Origin: Deltaproteobacteria bacterium
Lineage (GTDB): Bacteria > Desulfobacterota > Binatia > UBA9968
Length of the DNA: 32,323 nt
Direction of reading: 5' to 3'
NCBI GenBank assembly: GCA_016180805.1
Contig: JACPAM010000111.1
Coordinates: 1-32,323, forward strand
How positions within the stretch are numbered: position 1 is the stretch's first letter; each line of letters begins with the position of its first letter. The position numbers were made by a program, and so were the translations under genes. The notes under the pieces were generated by a model. That model was not told where the DNA came from. It ran no database searches and was given only the letters and a program-made list of their open reading frames with translations. Positions 4,124 to 24,143 of the stretch are shown in pieces.

Positions 4124-4206
4124 TTAAAACCCTAATCATGTTGGGGTGCGCTTCTTATAACAGATGGCCCCTGGAGGGTCAAGAAAGCAGGCTTTGCCCG
4201 CGCAAT

Positions 4207-4276
4207 TGCAAAATGAAAACTGCAAAATGCAAAGTTCAAAATTTTTCCTTTTGAATTTTTCAATTTGCATTTTGCA
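4207..4276. repeat. 7-nt-phased inverted repeat, locus 1
   Basis: tgcaaaa tgaaaac tgcaaaa tgcaaag ttcaaaa tttttcc ttttgaa tttttca atttgca ttttgca: ten in-phase heptamers; the right arm is complementary to the left. Confidence 0.85.
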
Positions 4277-4282
4277 TTGAAG

Positions 4283-5692
4283 TTACTCTTTTTCCGGGAT
4301 TCCCGGCTCGGTCATGCGCCATGGATCGAGAATTTTGTTTAGCCTGTCTTCCGGGAGAACCTTGTGCGCCAGCGAAACCTCCCGCACGGTCTTTCCGGTG
4401 GTAAAGGATTCTTTGGCGATCTTGGCGGCTGCGTCGTAGCCGATGACCGGCGCCAGAGCGGTCACCATCGCCAGGCTCTTTTCGATCATCTCTTCGCAGC
4501 GCTCCTGGTTAGCCTGGATTCCAACCACGCACCTCTCGGTAAAGGCGCGCACGGCGCTGGCGGTGAACGTGATCGCTTCCAGGAGCCTTAGCGCCATGAT
4601 CGGCATCATGACGTTGAGCTCGAAATTCCCCGCCTGACCACAGATCGTGATCGTGGCGTCGCAGCCGATAACATGGGCGGCGACCTGGAGGACCGACTCG
4701 CACATCACGGGGTTGACTTTTCCCGGCATGATCGAGGAGCCCGGCTGGGTATCCGGGAGCCCGATCTCCCCGATCCCGCATCTCGGCCCCGAGCTTAGCC
4801 AGCGCAGGTCGTTGGCGATCTTGGTCAGGCTTGCGGCCAGTGTTTTCAGGCTGCCGCTCAACTCCACGACCGCGTCCTTGGCGGCCTGAGCCTCAAAGTG
4901 ATTTTTCGCCTCACGAAAATTGACGCCGGTCATTTCGGAGATCTTTTTGATGGCTTTGGCGGGAAAGTCGGGGTGGGTGTTGATGCCCGTTCCGACCGCC
5001 GTGCCGCCGAGCGCGAGCTCTTCCAGGCCGGCCGAGGCGCGGCGGATTCGCTCTGCCCCGAGCTCGATCTGCCGCGCGTAGCCGCCAAACTCCTGGCCCA
5101 GGCGGATCGGCGTGGCGTCGGCCAGATGGGTGCGGCCGATTTTGACGATCCGGTCGAACTCCTGCGCCTTCTCTTTGAGGGCGAGATGGAGTTCGTCGAG
5201 GGCCGGCAAAAGCTCTCTTTGAATCGCCTCCAAGGCCGAAACATGAATGGCGGTGGGGATGACGTCATTGCTCGATTGGCTCATGTTTACATGGTCATTC
5301 GGGTGAACCTCCCTGCTCCCGCGCTGCTTGCCCAAAAGCTCGAGGGCGCGGTTGGCGATCACCTCGTTGGCGTTCATGTTCGTGGACGTTCCGGAACCCG
5401 TCTGAAAAATATCGACGACGAATTCTTTATCGAGTTTACCTTCTATGACCTCCGTTGCGGCCCGGCGGATGACGTCCGCAGTCTTGGGGTCGAGCAGCTT
5501 CAGCTCTTCGTTGGCGCTCGCGGCCGCGTGTTTGATGATGGCCAGGGCGCGGGTGAAACGGGGTGGAAAGCCGATACCGCTGATCGGGAAGTTGTCCACG
5601 GCGCGCTGGGTTTGGGCGCCGTAATAGGCGCTTTTCGGCACCTTGACTTCCCCCATGGAGTCCTTTTCGATCCGGTATTCCTGCACAGCCAT
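4283..5692 (-). CDS. fumC: Class II fumarate hydratase
   Basis: Full-length FumC with GSSIMPGKVNPV signature, TGSGTSTNMNANEVIANRA and SQSSNDVIPTA. Confidence 0.97.
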   Translation of the reverse strand: MAVQEYRIEKDSMGEVKVPKSAYYGAQTQRAVDNFPISGIGFPPRFTRALAIIKHAAASANEELKLLDPKTADVIRRAATEVIEGKLDKEFVVDIFQTGSGTSTNMNANEVIANRALELLGKQRGSREVHPNDHVNMSQSSNDVIPTAIHVSALEAIQRELLPALDELHLALKEKAQEFDRIVKIGRTHLADATPIRLGQEFGGYARQIELGAERIRRASAGLEELALGGTAVGTGINTHPDFPAKAIKKISEMTGVNFREAKNHFEAQAAKDAVVELSGSLKTLAASLTKIANDLRWLSSGPRCGIGEIGLPDTQPGSSIMPGKVNPVMCESVLQVAAHVIGCDATITICGQAGNFELNVMMPIMALRLLEAITFTASAVRAFTERCVVGIQANQERCEEMIEKSLAMVTALAPVIGYDAAAKIAKESFTTGKTVREVSLAHKVLPEDRLNKILDPWRMTEPGIPEKE

Positions 5693-5882
5693 GGTTGACT
5701 CTCCTTTATGAATTTCTTTTTAGCTTTTAGCGGTTTCTCGGTTCTAAGTCTAGCTCCGCCTCGACCCGCGCACGGGGGTAGTTCACCGGTCTCGGGGACA
5801 AGCCGCTCCGGTCGAGGGCAATAACAAAATAAAAATCGCGACTCGCCCCCTCGACCGGTTGTGCGACCGAGGGGAGCGCGAG

Positions 5883-5944
5883 CCCCGTTGAGTAACTGCA
5901 CGGTCGAGGAACCACCCCCGTGGTCAAGACCACACTCCACGGGG
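5883..5944. mobile_element. 62-bp insertion with terminal inverted repeats in element A copy 2
   Basis: CCCCGTTGAG...CTCCACGGGG termini (9/10 complementary), flanked by CGAG at 5879-5882 and 5945-5948; absent from copies 1 and 3. Confidence 0.65.
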
Positions 5945-6017
5945 CGAGCGAGGCTGCGGAGACGTCCGATTACAAACGGCACGACTCATGGCACGAACCC
6001 ATCGGCCGCAGAGTTAC

Positions 6018-6047
6018 GGGGACAGGCACGCAAGCGAGCCAGTCCCC
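6018..6047. repeat. REP-like hairpin B3, inserted in element A copy 2
   Basis: ggggacaggcacgcaagcgagccagtcccc, identical to B1/B2; insert 6012-6050 is flanked by (G)CCGCAG repeats at 6005-6011 and 6050-6056. Confidence 0.85.
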
Positions 6048-6105
6048 TCGCCGCAGCCGAGAGCGCGCTTCCCGAGGGAGCTTGGTCCATCGGCTGAATG
6101 CGAGC

Positions 6106-6138
6106 GGGGACAGGCACCGCTTCGCGGAGCCTGTCCCC
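6106..6138. repeat. REP-like hairpin B4
   Basis: GGGGACAGGC-A-CCGC-TTC-GCGG-A-GCCTGTCCCC; flanked by GAGC at 6102-6105 and 6140-6143. Confidence 0.85.
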
Positions 6139-6220
6139 TGAGCCGCGCGCTGACGGCTCGGCCCCCGAGGAGCCTTCAGAGGAATGCAGGCTAGGTACCG
6201 GAGCAGGTATTGCGGCGATG

Positions 6221-7930
6221 CTAACTTCCGCAGGGGATCGTGACCGTGAAGGTGGAACCCTTGCCCGGCTCGCTCGTCACCGCGACGGTTCCGCCGAGCA
6301 TGTCGGTAAACTTCTTCACGATGTAGAGGCCGAGCCCGATGCCGCCGCGCGTTCGGCGGGCCGAGCTATCGCCCTGGTGAAAGATCCTGAAGATGGACGC
6401 CACGGACTCATGGCGGATGCCGATGCCAGTGTCCGTCACCTTGAACTCGACAGAGGCTTGAGGCGGGAGACGTGAGGCATCAGTTAAATCTTCTTCCGTT
6501 GACTGTTGCCCGTTGCCCGTTGCCTCATGCCTGGCGCCTTCTACCAGCCGGGCGGAAACCCGCACCTCTCCACGATCGGTGAATTTGATCGCATTGTTGA
6601 TGAGATTTTGCAGAATCTGCCTGAGCTTCACGCCATCGGTATGGATGGTTGGCAGGTCTGGAGGGTAATCCCACTTCAGCGCGAGGTCTTTGTCCGGAGG
6701 GTAGTCGTAGTCCGTTCGAAGCTCGTCTAAAAAATGGCTCAATCTCACCGGGCGCGAGTTGACCTTGATCGCGTGGGACTCGAGCCTGGTTGCATCGAGG
6801 ATGCTGCTGACCATACTCAGCAACTCATTGGAGCGACTGAGAATTTTGCCGATGACCTTTTCTTGCTCGGAGCTTGTTGCTCCCACCACTTTTTCCTGAA
6901 TCATCCGCGCGTAGCCGTTGATGACGGTGATCGGAGTCTTCAGCTCGTGTGACATAATACTCAGGAATTCGTCTTTCACCTTGTTCGCTCTCTCCAGGTC
7001 CGCTGCTTGTCTTTTCGTTTGTTCGAAGAGCCGGGAATTGTGGATCGCGATCGCCGCCTGTCCGGCAAGCGTCGAGAGAAATTCGATCTCGTCGTCGACG
7101 AAAAGGTGCTCCTCTTTCGTGTAGAAAGAGAGGACCCCCAAAGCCTCCCCTTTGGCGATCAACGGGACACCCAGAAAGGAGACCAGCCCCCGCTTGCGGA
7201 AGGACTCGGGCTCGCTGACCTGCGGGTCGGTATGCAGGTCAGACGACACCAGGGGGGTTTTCGTGTCGAACACGCGACGAGCCAGGTTGCCGCCAGAGTC
7301 CGAGAGCTCTGACTCCGTTTGGTCCTCATCGACATTCCGACTGACGATGGCCTCTAAGGCCTGGGTTTCTTTGTTGTATAACCGAACCGTTGTGGCGGAA
7401 TAGGGGAGAAGCTGATCGATTTTTGCCAGCAGCAACGTCAAGACTTTATGGAGCTCCAGGGTTGAGGTAATGGCCAGGTTGATATCATGCAGACCCGCCT
7501 GGCGCCGCCGATGGTGCTGAACCTGTTCTTCGGCCCGCCGCCGCTCCCGGCGCACTTTGGACTCCCCCAATTCCCGTTCGATGGCGGGAATGAGGCGGGC
7601 GAGGTTCCCCTTCATGATGTAGTCCTGGGCGCCCGCTTTCATCGCCGCCACGGCTGTGTCCTCGCCGATCGTTCCGGAGACGAAGATGAAGGGGATATCG
7701 AGCCCGCTCTTTTTGAGCAACGCCAACGCTCCGGTCCCGGTAAAGTTGGGCATGCTGTAGTCTGACACCACGATGTCCCAACTGTGTCGGGCAAGCGCCG
7801 CCATCATGTCCTCGGCGGTATCCACCCGTTCGTGGATGACATCGTAACCGGCGCGCTGCAGCGCCCGCACCAGAAGCAGCGCGTCGTCTTCCATGTCTTC
7901 GACGATGAGCACCCGCAGCGCTTGGCTCAT
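6221..7930 (-). CDS. Receiver-GAF-histidine kinase hybrid protein
   Basis: N-terminal receiver (IVEDMEDDALLL...VVSDYSMP...VSGT), GAF-like region, HisKA FLSIMSHELKTPITVI, HATPase N box and DTGIGI/GGIGLGLYIVKK. Confidence 0.93.
   Translation of the reverse strand: MSQALRVLIVEDMEDDALLLVRALQRAGYDVIHERVDTAEDMMAALARHSWDIVVSDYSMPNFTGTGALALLKKSGLDIPFIFVSGTIGEDTAVAAMKAGAQDYIMKGNLARLIPAIERELGESKVRRERRRAEEQVQHHRRRQAGLHDINLAITSTLELHKVLTLLLAKIDQLLPYSATTVRLYNKETQALEAIVSRNVDEDQTESELSDSGGNLARRVFDTKTPLVSSDLHTDPQVSEPESFRKRGLVSFLGVPLIAKGEALGVLSFYTKEEHLFVDDEIEFLSTLAGQAAIAIHNSRLFEQTKRQAADLERANKVKDEFLSIMSHELKTPITVINGYARMIQEKVVGATSSEQEKVIGKILSRSNELLSMVSSILDATRLESHAIKVNSRPVRLSHFLDELRTDYDYPPDKDLALKWDYPPDLPTIHTDGVKLRQILQNLINNAIKFTDRGEVRVSARLVEGARHEATGNGQQSTEEDLTDASRLPPQASVEFKVTDTGIGIRHESVASIFRIFHQGDSSARRTRGGIGLGLYIVKKFTDMLGGTVAVTSEPGKGSTFTVTIPCGS
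6453..6536. repeat. 7-nt-phased inverted repeat, locus 2, inside a CDS
   Basis: gaggctt gaggcgg gagacgt gaggcat cagttaa atcttct tccgttg actgttg cccgttg cccgttg cctcatg cctggcg: twelve in-phase heptamers; lies in frame in the kinase ATPase domain. Confidence 0.8.
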
Positions 7931-12033: not shown

Positions 12034-12741
12034 ATGGGGCGTGTGCGTAGCCTCGGGGAACTAAACAAGGCTATCGTTGGGTGCGCAAGATGCCCGCGCT
12101 TGGTCAGGTGGCGAGGGGCGGTGGCTAGAAAACCGCCGCGACGATACCAGGGGGAGACTTACTGGTCCAAACCCCTTCCGGGATTCGGGGATCCGGACGC
12201 GCGTCTGCTCATCGTGGGGCTGGCGCCGGCGGCGCATGGTGGGAACCGGACTGGACGGATCTTTACCGGGGATCGAAGCGGTGATTGGCTTTACGGGACT
12301 CTCCACGCCTTCGGTTTTTCCAATCACGCTACATCAGTTCGCCGCGACGATGGTCTAAGGCTCCGTAGCTGCTACGTGACTGCTGCCGTGCGCTGCGCGC
12401 CCCCGGCGAACAAACCCGCCAAAAGAGAGTTTGACAATTGCCGGCCTTATCTCGTGCGCGAGCTGGGGCTTCTGGGGAATCTCCGTGTGGTCGTCGCGCT
12501 GGGTAAAATCGCTTTTGATTCGTTTCTGAAAGCGTATGAGGAAAGCGGAGGTGTCGTTCCGAAGCCCCGGCCTAAGTTTCGGCATGGTGCTCTATATCGG
12601 CTTTCGGACGCTTTGAGCCTTTTGGCATCTTATCATCCCAGCCAGCAGAACACGTTCACCGGCAAGCTCACTCGCCCGATGTTTCAGGCTGTCTTTGAGA
12701 AGGCGAGGGCGATTCTGGAAGGAGGCGCTAGTCAGTTTTAA
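12034..12741 (+). CDS. Family 5-type uracil-DNA glycosylase (UdgB-like)
   Basis: CARCPRLV, GFGDPDARLLIVGLAPAAHGGNRTGRIFTGDRSG, CYVTAAVRCAPP, ASYHPSQQNTFTGKL. Confidence 0.92.
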   Translation: MGRVRSLGELNKAIVGCARCPRLVRWRGAVARKPPRRYQGETYWSKPLPGFGDPDARLLIVGLAPAAHGGNRTGRIFTGDRSGDWLYGTLHAFGFSNHATSVRRDDGLRLRSCYVTAAVRCAPPANKPAKREFDNCRPYLVRELGLLGNLRVVVALGKIAFDSFLKAYEESGGVVPKPRPKFRHGALYRLSDALSLLASYHPSQQNTFTGKLTRPMFQAVFEKARAILEGGASQF

Positions 12742-12817
12742 GTTTTTAGTTCTTAGTTTTGAGTTGAAGGAGTTTTCTGATTAACTAAAAACCCAAAATT
12801 CAAAACTAAAAACTGAC
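12731..12817. repeat. 7-nt-phased inverted repeat, locus 3
   Basis: gtcagtt ttaagtt tttagtt cttagtt ttgagtt gaaggag ttttctg attaact aaaaacc caaaatt caaaact aaaaact gac; outer arms GTCAGTTTT/AAAACTGAC (the 3' arm reads aaaaactgac). Confidence 0.88.
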
Positions 12818-18203: not shown

Positions 18204-18731
18204 GTGGGGTCATCCATCGAACGCGCTAGGGGGAAGGTGAGCGAGTGGCTAGAGCGGCATCGCCAAGCCGTGCTTTACGATGAGGAGAGTTCGACACTTC
18301 TCGATGTGGCATCGGGTAAGTCGGTGCATCTTCCCTGGAGCGAGTTGAAAGCTTACGAAGAGAAAATCCACCCCGAGACCCGGGATGCCTACCTTGTCCT
18401 GCTTTTCGAAAATGGCAATCAGATCGCTTTGGTCGATCCCGGGGGGATCGCTTTTTCTCCATCCGAGGCCAGCACGGGGCCTGTGCGCGATCTCCCGCCC
18501 GTGGTCTGCCTGAAGGATTTTCTGACACTGAAGCAGCGCGTCGACCATTACCTTTATGCGCATCAGGAGGAGGCTCCCCCGCGGGAATGTTTGGTTCTCG
18601 TGACGGTCTGCATCGCGATCCTCGACGGGGCGCGGTTGGTTGGGTTCGATGTCGGCGACCTGGAAGAAGAACTGGACCGTTCTCTTCGCGAGATCGAAAA
18701 GCGGGCCGGATCGGGAGGCAGTAAGCAGTAA
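18204..18731 (+). CDS. Hypothetical protein (175 aa, GTG start)
   Basis: Open frame of 175 codons in an otherwise intergenic region; no family recognised; the last codons lie in a 7-nt repeat locus. Confidence 0.6.
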   Translation: MGSSIERARGKVSEWLERHRQAVLYDEESSTLLDVASGKSVHLPWSELKAYEEKIHPETRDAYLVLLFENGNQIALVDPGGIAFSPSEASTGPVRDLPPVVCLKDFLTLKQRVDHYLYAHQEEAPPRECLVLVTVCIAILDGARLVGFDVGDLEEELDRSLREIEKRAGSGGSKQ

Positions 18732-18804
18732 GCAATAGTGGCCCCGAAACTCGAAACTCCTCTCCGAACTAATGCCTGTCGCCTATTGCATTTTGCCTAA
18801 TTTT
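18714..18804. repeat. 7-nt-phased inverted repeat, locus 4, between convergent genes
   Basis: ggaggca gtaagca gtaagca atagtgg ccccgaa actcgaa actcctc tccgaac taatgcc tgtcgcc tattgca ttttgcc taatttt: thirteen in-phase heptamers. Confidence 0.75.
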
Positions 18805-23935: not shown

Positions 23936-23968
23936 CCCGAAGGGAAGCGCGAGCGAAGCTGCGGACAA
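23936..23968. repeat. Element A, partial copy 4 (left arm only)
   Basis: cccgaagggaagcgcgagcgaagctgcggacaa; matches the left arm of copy 3, then diverges. Confidence 0.7.
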
Positions 23969-23979
23969 GCCCTTCGGGA

Positions 23980-24042
23980 TTTCAAATGGCAAATTTCAGA
24001 TCTCAGATTTGAGATATGAGATCTGCGATCTGAGATTCCGAG
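23980..24042. repeat. 7-nt-phased inverted repeat, locus 5
   Basis: tttcaaa tggcaaa tttcaga tctcaga tttgaga tatgaga tctgcga tctgaga ttccgag: nine in-phase heptamers. Confidence 0.82.
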
Positions 24043-24143
24043 CCAGGCGAGGACAGCCTATCGGCCGCCCTTCGATTTTACTCAGGGTGGTGAGTTTATC
24101 GAACCACGGCCTGATGGATCGGCCCCCGTAGAAGAAAATTCTC

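Follow-up and report, generated by a model that had tools for sequence, protein, structure and literature searches.

What kind of genetic element preserves a seven-nucleotide phase and an inverted symmetry while the sequence of its repeating unit varies? The question is raised by the DNA at the 3' side of fumC in the stretch analyzed here, a window of 32,323 nucleotides. This window corresponds to contig 24 among the 339 that make up a genome of 4.46 Mb, the nearest named relative of which, as judged from fumC (87% identical), is the metagenome genome of Deltaproteobacteria bacterium RIFCSPLOWO2_02_56_12. At this locus five TGCAAAA-like units are followed by complementary TTTTGCA-like units, and the initial annotation had joined it with four other loci of the window into a family, each member of which was held to have a unit of its own. 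Much of the DNA analyzed below comes from metagenome assemblies.

Five heptamer-phased loci in the window

The five loci, none of which is assigned to a strand, are the following:

Locus 1, 4204-4278: heptamer-phased class A palindrome (TGCAAAA / TTTTGCA), flanked by fumC and by the gene for the SDH/fumarate reductase flavoprotein
Locus 2, 6453-6539: AGGCNNN/NNNGCCT-type element, in frame within a hybrid histidine kinase gene, in its HATPase_c domain
Locus 3, 12731-12817: class C palindrome (AGTTTTT / AACTAAA) in the gap separating the genes for a uracil-DNA-glycosylase and an FAD-oxidase, both on the + strand
Locus 4, 18714-18804: phased array of GCAGTAA- and GAAACTC-type units with convergent genes on either side and weak inverted symmetry
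Locus 5, 23979-24041: class D (TTTCAGATCTCAGAT) palindrome

Automatic scoring preferred period 7 over all other periods from 4 to 13 at five of the five loci, and against 300 local shuffles the 7-nt phase was significant at each of them (p ≤ 0.003), which bears out the common register that had been described. The inverted symmetry attributed to all five reaches significance at four loci (p ≤ 0.003 for loci 1, 3 and 5, p ≤ 0.02 for locus 2), but is weak at locus 4 (p ≤ 0.076). Both genes flanking locus 1 lie on the - strand, with the fumC stop 4 nt away, and the element is absent from the 3' side of fumC in two relatives. The histidine kinase ORF hosting locus 2 spans 6221-7930 on the - strand, and its ortholog in a congener (G001) does not carry the element. 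Locus 5 and an element on another contig (L121:4439-4577) have flanks (GCGGACAAGCCCTTCGGG) in common which reach past the heptamer arms (23960-24060 in the window), so that class D seems to be embedded in a longer dispersed palindromic repeat. An Rfam scan of the window returned 0 matches, and the window contains no rRNA, its elements lying between or inside protein genes.

Abundance, unit classes and location of the elements

To place these loci in their genomic context we used a 267-kb sample of the genome, drawn regardless of hits except that the window was included. Autocorrelation of its intergenic DNA is raised at lags 7, 14 and 21 relative to dinucleotide shuffles (z 7.4, 5.6 and 6.5, respectively), while its coding DNA has no excess at lag 7. 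Eighteen period-7 segments score above 13 in this sample as against 0 in shuffled DNA, and periods other than multiples of 7 yield at most two such segments each. Since the lag-7 excess over the shuffles is accompanied by a common register at all five loci, the family withstands both of the comparisons on which the initial annotation had staked it. The sample holds 16 elements, from which we estimate a genome total of about 270.

The notion that every locus has its own unit holds only in part: the unit does vary among loci, but units fall into classes, each common to many dispersed copies. These include A (TGCAAAA), B (GTCAATG), C (AGTTTTT), D (TTTCAGATCT), E (AGGCAAT) and G (TCAGCTA), along with others, in proportions that are biased because some contig sets were picked for holding class A hits. 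A family that retains phase and palindromy while its unit varies is therefore real, genome-wide and present in relatives.

Class A, for which 58 two-arm elements from three genomes were available, reveals a constrained anatomy. TGCAAAA comes first in 58/58 of these elements, 27/58 have exactly 5+5 units, and exactly five units make up 122 of 200 class A core chains. The number of units per arm peaks at five in classes A and C and at four in classes B and E, and a fixed arm polarity is seen in class B as well as class A. Adjacent identical units are depleted in class A (16 observed, 37.5 expected). On inspection, class A arms at distant loci have their order of units in common, which makes them appear homologous and not independently invented; as class A copies are related, the count of five may in part represent shared inheritance. 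An arm is less complementary to its own partner than to the arms of different elements (z -7.3, 58 class A elements), the longest perfect complementary run being 14 nt between own arms and up to 34 nt between arms of different elements. An RNA stem kept by compensatory change is unsupported, as own arms pair no better than foreign ones. This shunning of perfect pairing could reflect that hairpins with perfect stems are unstable or that cutting by RNase III is avoided. The arms are usually degenerate; a near-perfect tandem GAGTTTT array occurs at a gene end on another contig (L135:2894-2967).

The elements are strongly biased in location: 159/763 gaps between co-oriented genes are occupied, compared with 5/96 convergent and 7/146 divergent gaps (12/242 together; p 5e-10). 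Within co-oriented gaps the median distance to the preceding stop is 2 nt and that to the next start 15 nt, values that are approximate because the genes were called with a simple hexamer model. A few elements interrupt genes, as locus 2 does in the histidine kinase. Arm pairs with long loops enclosing other genes are merely unremarkable pairs of neighboring elements.

Comparison between species shows that such gaps may change their class of array. The gap of locus 3 holds other phased classes in relatives, other genera included (TCAGCTA, TTGCCTA, TTTCGAA, GCAGTAG and others), and no array in some of them. In another 20-kb region, three congeners differ at one gap, the first carrying class A, another a TTTTCAG-type arm and the third a 9-phase GTTCAA array, whereas two further gaps of that region retain the same class among congeners. 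When eight sites of the window genome were matched with those of the congener G001, the class agreed at two, a different phased array was present at four, and two had none. In this small sample, gaps tend to stay occupied while the class switches. No movement of an element was observed, and no target-site duplication was established at the orthologous sites compared, which were strongly diverged.

S23p genes and their phased borders

S23p (PF05635), the 23S rRNA intervening-sequence protein, is best known from inserts in rRNA genes. In one relative (G010) an S23p gene lies between class C arms in the very gap that holds the ORF-less class C locus 3 in the window, and this prompted a test of S23p genes in general. 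Based on the 57 S23p loci with enough flanking sequence (29 from this family and 28 from other families of the phylum, all best-scoring hits rather than a random sample), we found 7-phase arrays on both flanks at 31/57 loci as against 10/313 size-matched control genes, 8-phase arrays at 6/57 as against 1/313, and 9-phase arrays at 6/57 as against 0/313 (Fisher 5e-21 for the comparison of borders). The upstream and downstream flanks of S23p genes have an inverted-repeat score of 42.2, which falls to 18.8 when flanks are swapped. The association extends to cyanobacterial plasmids, on which phased-array borders accompany 9/11 S23p genes and 2/123 control genes, phased arrays being otherwise rare there (0.05 per kb). 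Two S23p genes accompanied by heptamer arrays, on Anabaena sp. 90 pANA02 (L361) and Pseudanabaena galeata pPg_01 (L369), are situated between cas6 and cas4.

Arm units are the more alike the closer their S23p proteins are: the similarity is 0.19 at 35-45% protein identity and climbs to 0.65 at 70-85% (Mantel test, 0/2000 permutations). The phase, too, is clustered on the tree of S23p, where it changes 19 times versus 25.3 times when shuffled (0/200), the 9-nt arrays occurring in one part of this tree; closely related S23p rows and the shared descent of whole elements feed into both results. In either case arms and S23p gene travel together. Moreover, ORF-bearing and ORF-less elements have the same arm polarity in classes B, C, E and G. 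At eight S23p loci with GTTCAA or GTTCCA cores (L250, L255, L257, L260, L262, L277, L278 and L302) the core is constant while the spacing varies from 8 to 10 nt.

Other observations delimit this association. Clear arrays are wanting at 11/60 S23p loci, class A arms were found at none of about 90, and the number of units is more variable around S23p genes. None of 20 S23p loci of this phylum scanned lies within LSU rRNA. Borders of 9-nt phase flank the sole intact S23p gene that turned up in this genome, as well as one relic, the ~270 elements being 7-phase; contigs of this genome and its relatives, about 1.65 Mb in all, gave one S23p relic only, and no relic was found in the loops of 7-phase elements. 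Since the S23p genes found in the host are of 9-phase type and no class A S23p was seen, present-day mobilization in trans in this genome is unsupported. The S23p proteins examined match PF05635/TIGR02436 and more weakly resemble Avd, an accessory protein of retroelements. Five chains are listed in each of the PDB entries 2gsc and 2rld, which are solved S23p relatives, and Xcc0516 (2gsc) is an assembly of five four-helix bundles according to a paper to which PMC3936711 refers.

Origin of the elements and relation to known systems

In light of the architecture that they have in common with the borders of S23p genes, the elements are most readily understood as relatives, lacking an ORF, of the S23p palindromic elements. 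We consider it probable that the window loci, themselves without an ORF, belong to or are closely derived from a family of S23p elements which resembles intervening sequences and resides mainly outside rRNA in intercistronic positions. The five loci are dispersed palindromes with arms of about four to five seven-nucleotide units in opposite orientation. A ring of S23p, with five chains as in the solved relatives, might recognize the phased array that belongs to it, either in RNA or in single-stranded DNA; such recognition would preserve the spacing even as the sequence of the unit and the protein co-evolve, and the elements could spread into gaps via a copying step that perhaps needs a partner enzyme. 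As the number of units depends on the class and is more variable around S23p genes, the match to a pentamer is only suggestive. We put forward, as a tentative and still doubtful generalization, that S23p forms a pentameric ring which reads phased repeats, with one protomer per unit, and that the heptanucleotide repeats of many bacteria are the borders and solitary relics of a single widespread class of S23p-dependent selfish elements. If so, spacing would be set by the geometry of the ring while the unit drifts with the protein, cyanobacterial heptanucleotide repeats would be included, and the elements would settle in gaps inside operons.

The arrays might instead be dispersed regulator sites on polycistronic mRNA or operon DNA, kept for their function and bound by S23p or another protein that also regulates itself. 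This reading, which we judge to have a minor but appreciable chance, would suit the excess in co-oriented gaps, where elements are wedged between a stop and the following start, the continued occupancy of several gaps despite a change of class, and the annotation of paired sites in Geobacter metallireducens as putative global-regulator sites (PMC2700814). However, three classes at one gap in three congeners are hard to accommodate in a sequence-specific regulon, some copies interrupt coding genes, and some sites are empty in relatives. S23p genes and heptamer palindromes might also be independent, the former inserting into or beside existing palindromes as hot spots; the great numerical preponderance of ORF-less elements and the lack of an S23p member in class A would fit, but we hold this to be unlikely given that unit class and phase track S23p phylogeny over genera and families, and that the link persists on cyanobacterial plasmids despite the rarity of phased arrays there.

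An origin by mutation only, with slippage and template switching (the latter suggested initially) generating tandem heptamers and then fold-back palindromes without any protein, does not fare well. Such events do yield tandem phase together with inverted symmetry, and the near-perfect array at L135:2894-2967 is of the kind expected, but a recent fold-back or template switch would leave own arms highly complementary and the opposite is found. The narrow number of units, the fixed polarity, the depletion of identical neighbors and the location bias likewise argue against expansion, and neither the order of units common to arms at distant loci nor the S23p linkage would be explained; we therefore regard this origin as very improbable. 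Least plausible to us is a derivation from REP/REPIN or insertion-sequence-derived miniature elements mobilized by a host transposase. These too are dispersed intergenic palindromes with presence or absence at orthologous sites, but many unit classes of phased array are ill-suited to the end of one transposase, inspection found no GTAG/CGTC-tagged REP core at the five loci, and no target-site duplication was established at the diverged orthologous sites.

The preferred reading may be set against repeats already known. Cyanobacterial STRRs are tandem arrays of a fixed heptanucleotide; the window elements have the 7-nt tandem period between genes in common with them, but their units are degenerate, of many classes, inverted and paired, and we do not equate the 7-phase borders of S23p genes on cyanobacterial plasmids with the named STRRs. 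Rickettsia palindromic elements can sit in frame within genes and by description resemble locus 2 in this respect, and we know of no heptamer phase in them. Both S23p and the heptanucleotide repeats of bacteria were recognized decades ago, neither, to our knowledge, with a settled function; if the arrays are S23p borders and targets, one binding assay would test both puzzles, and many unexplained intergenic repeats would be relics of one element family.

Closer parallels are on record separately, which limits the suggestion that the family is undescribed. In the 23S rRNA intervening sequences of Coxiella and Leptospira (PMC4990558) a palindromic stem surrounds the S23p/IVP ORF with tandem heptamers (GACAGAT), variable in number among strains, adjoining it; in Coxiella these precede the ORF. 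Inverted-repeat borders of this sort are found at loci 1, 2, 3 and 5, whereas no window locus has an S23p ORF inside the element or lies in 23S rRNA, the elements occurring instead in hundreds of copies between protein genes. In Geobacter metallireducens, the available text of PMC2700814 annotates dispersed paired arrays of 4-5 units of 7 or 8 nt on opposite strands, with a class-specific unit as here; they differ in being treated as putative global-regulator sites, and that text reports no S23p link. The TAACTGA repeats of Beggiatoaceae (PMC4679880) are likewise abundant intergenic heptamers, but consist of one fixed unit in nearly always direct orientation, with S23p unmentioned. What appears new here is the tying of S23p borders to heptamer-phased palindromes. 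We found no paper joining paired hepta/octamer arrays with S23p in the open-access literature, and earlier notice elsewhere is possible. The occurrence of S23p genes inside cas operons (PMC3936711) may be a case of element insertion, for which the S23p element reading could account.

The window also contains another dispersed repeat of ~110-190 bp (134-632 and 5852-6182), with dozens of copies in the genome and a congener that are mostly 80-97% identical, and with a perfect 50-bp tandem duplication at 489-588. One copy (L125:8268-8483) is missing from the corresponding site of the congener (L333, ~5202-5215), where the flanking alignments overlap by 14 bp, which may represent a target-site duplication of this repeat.
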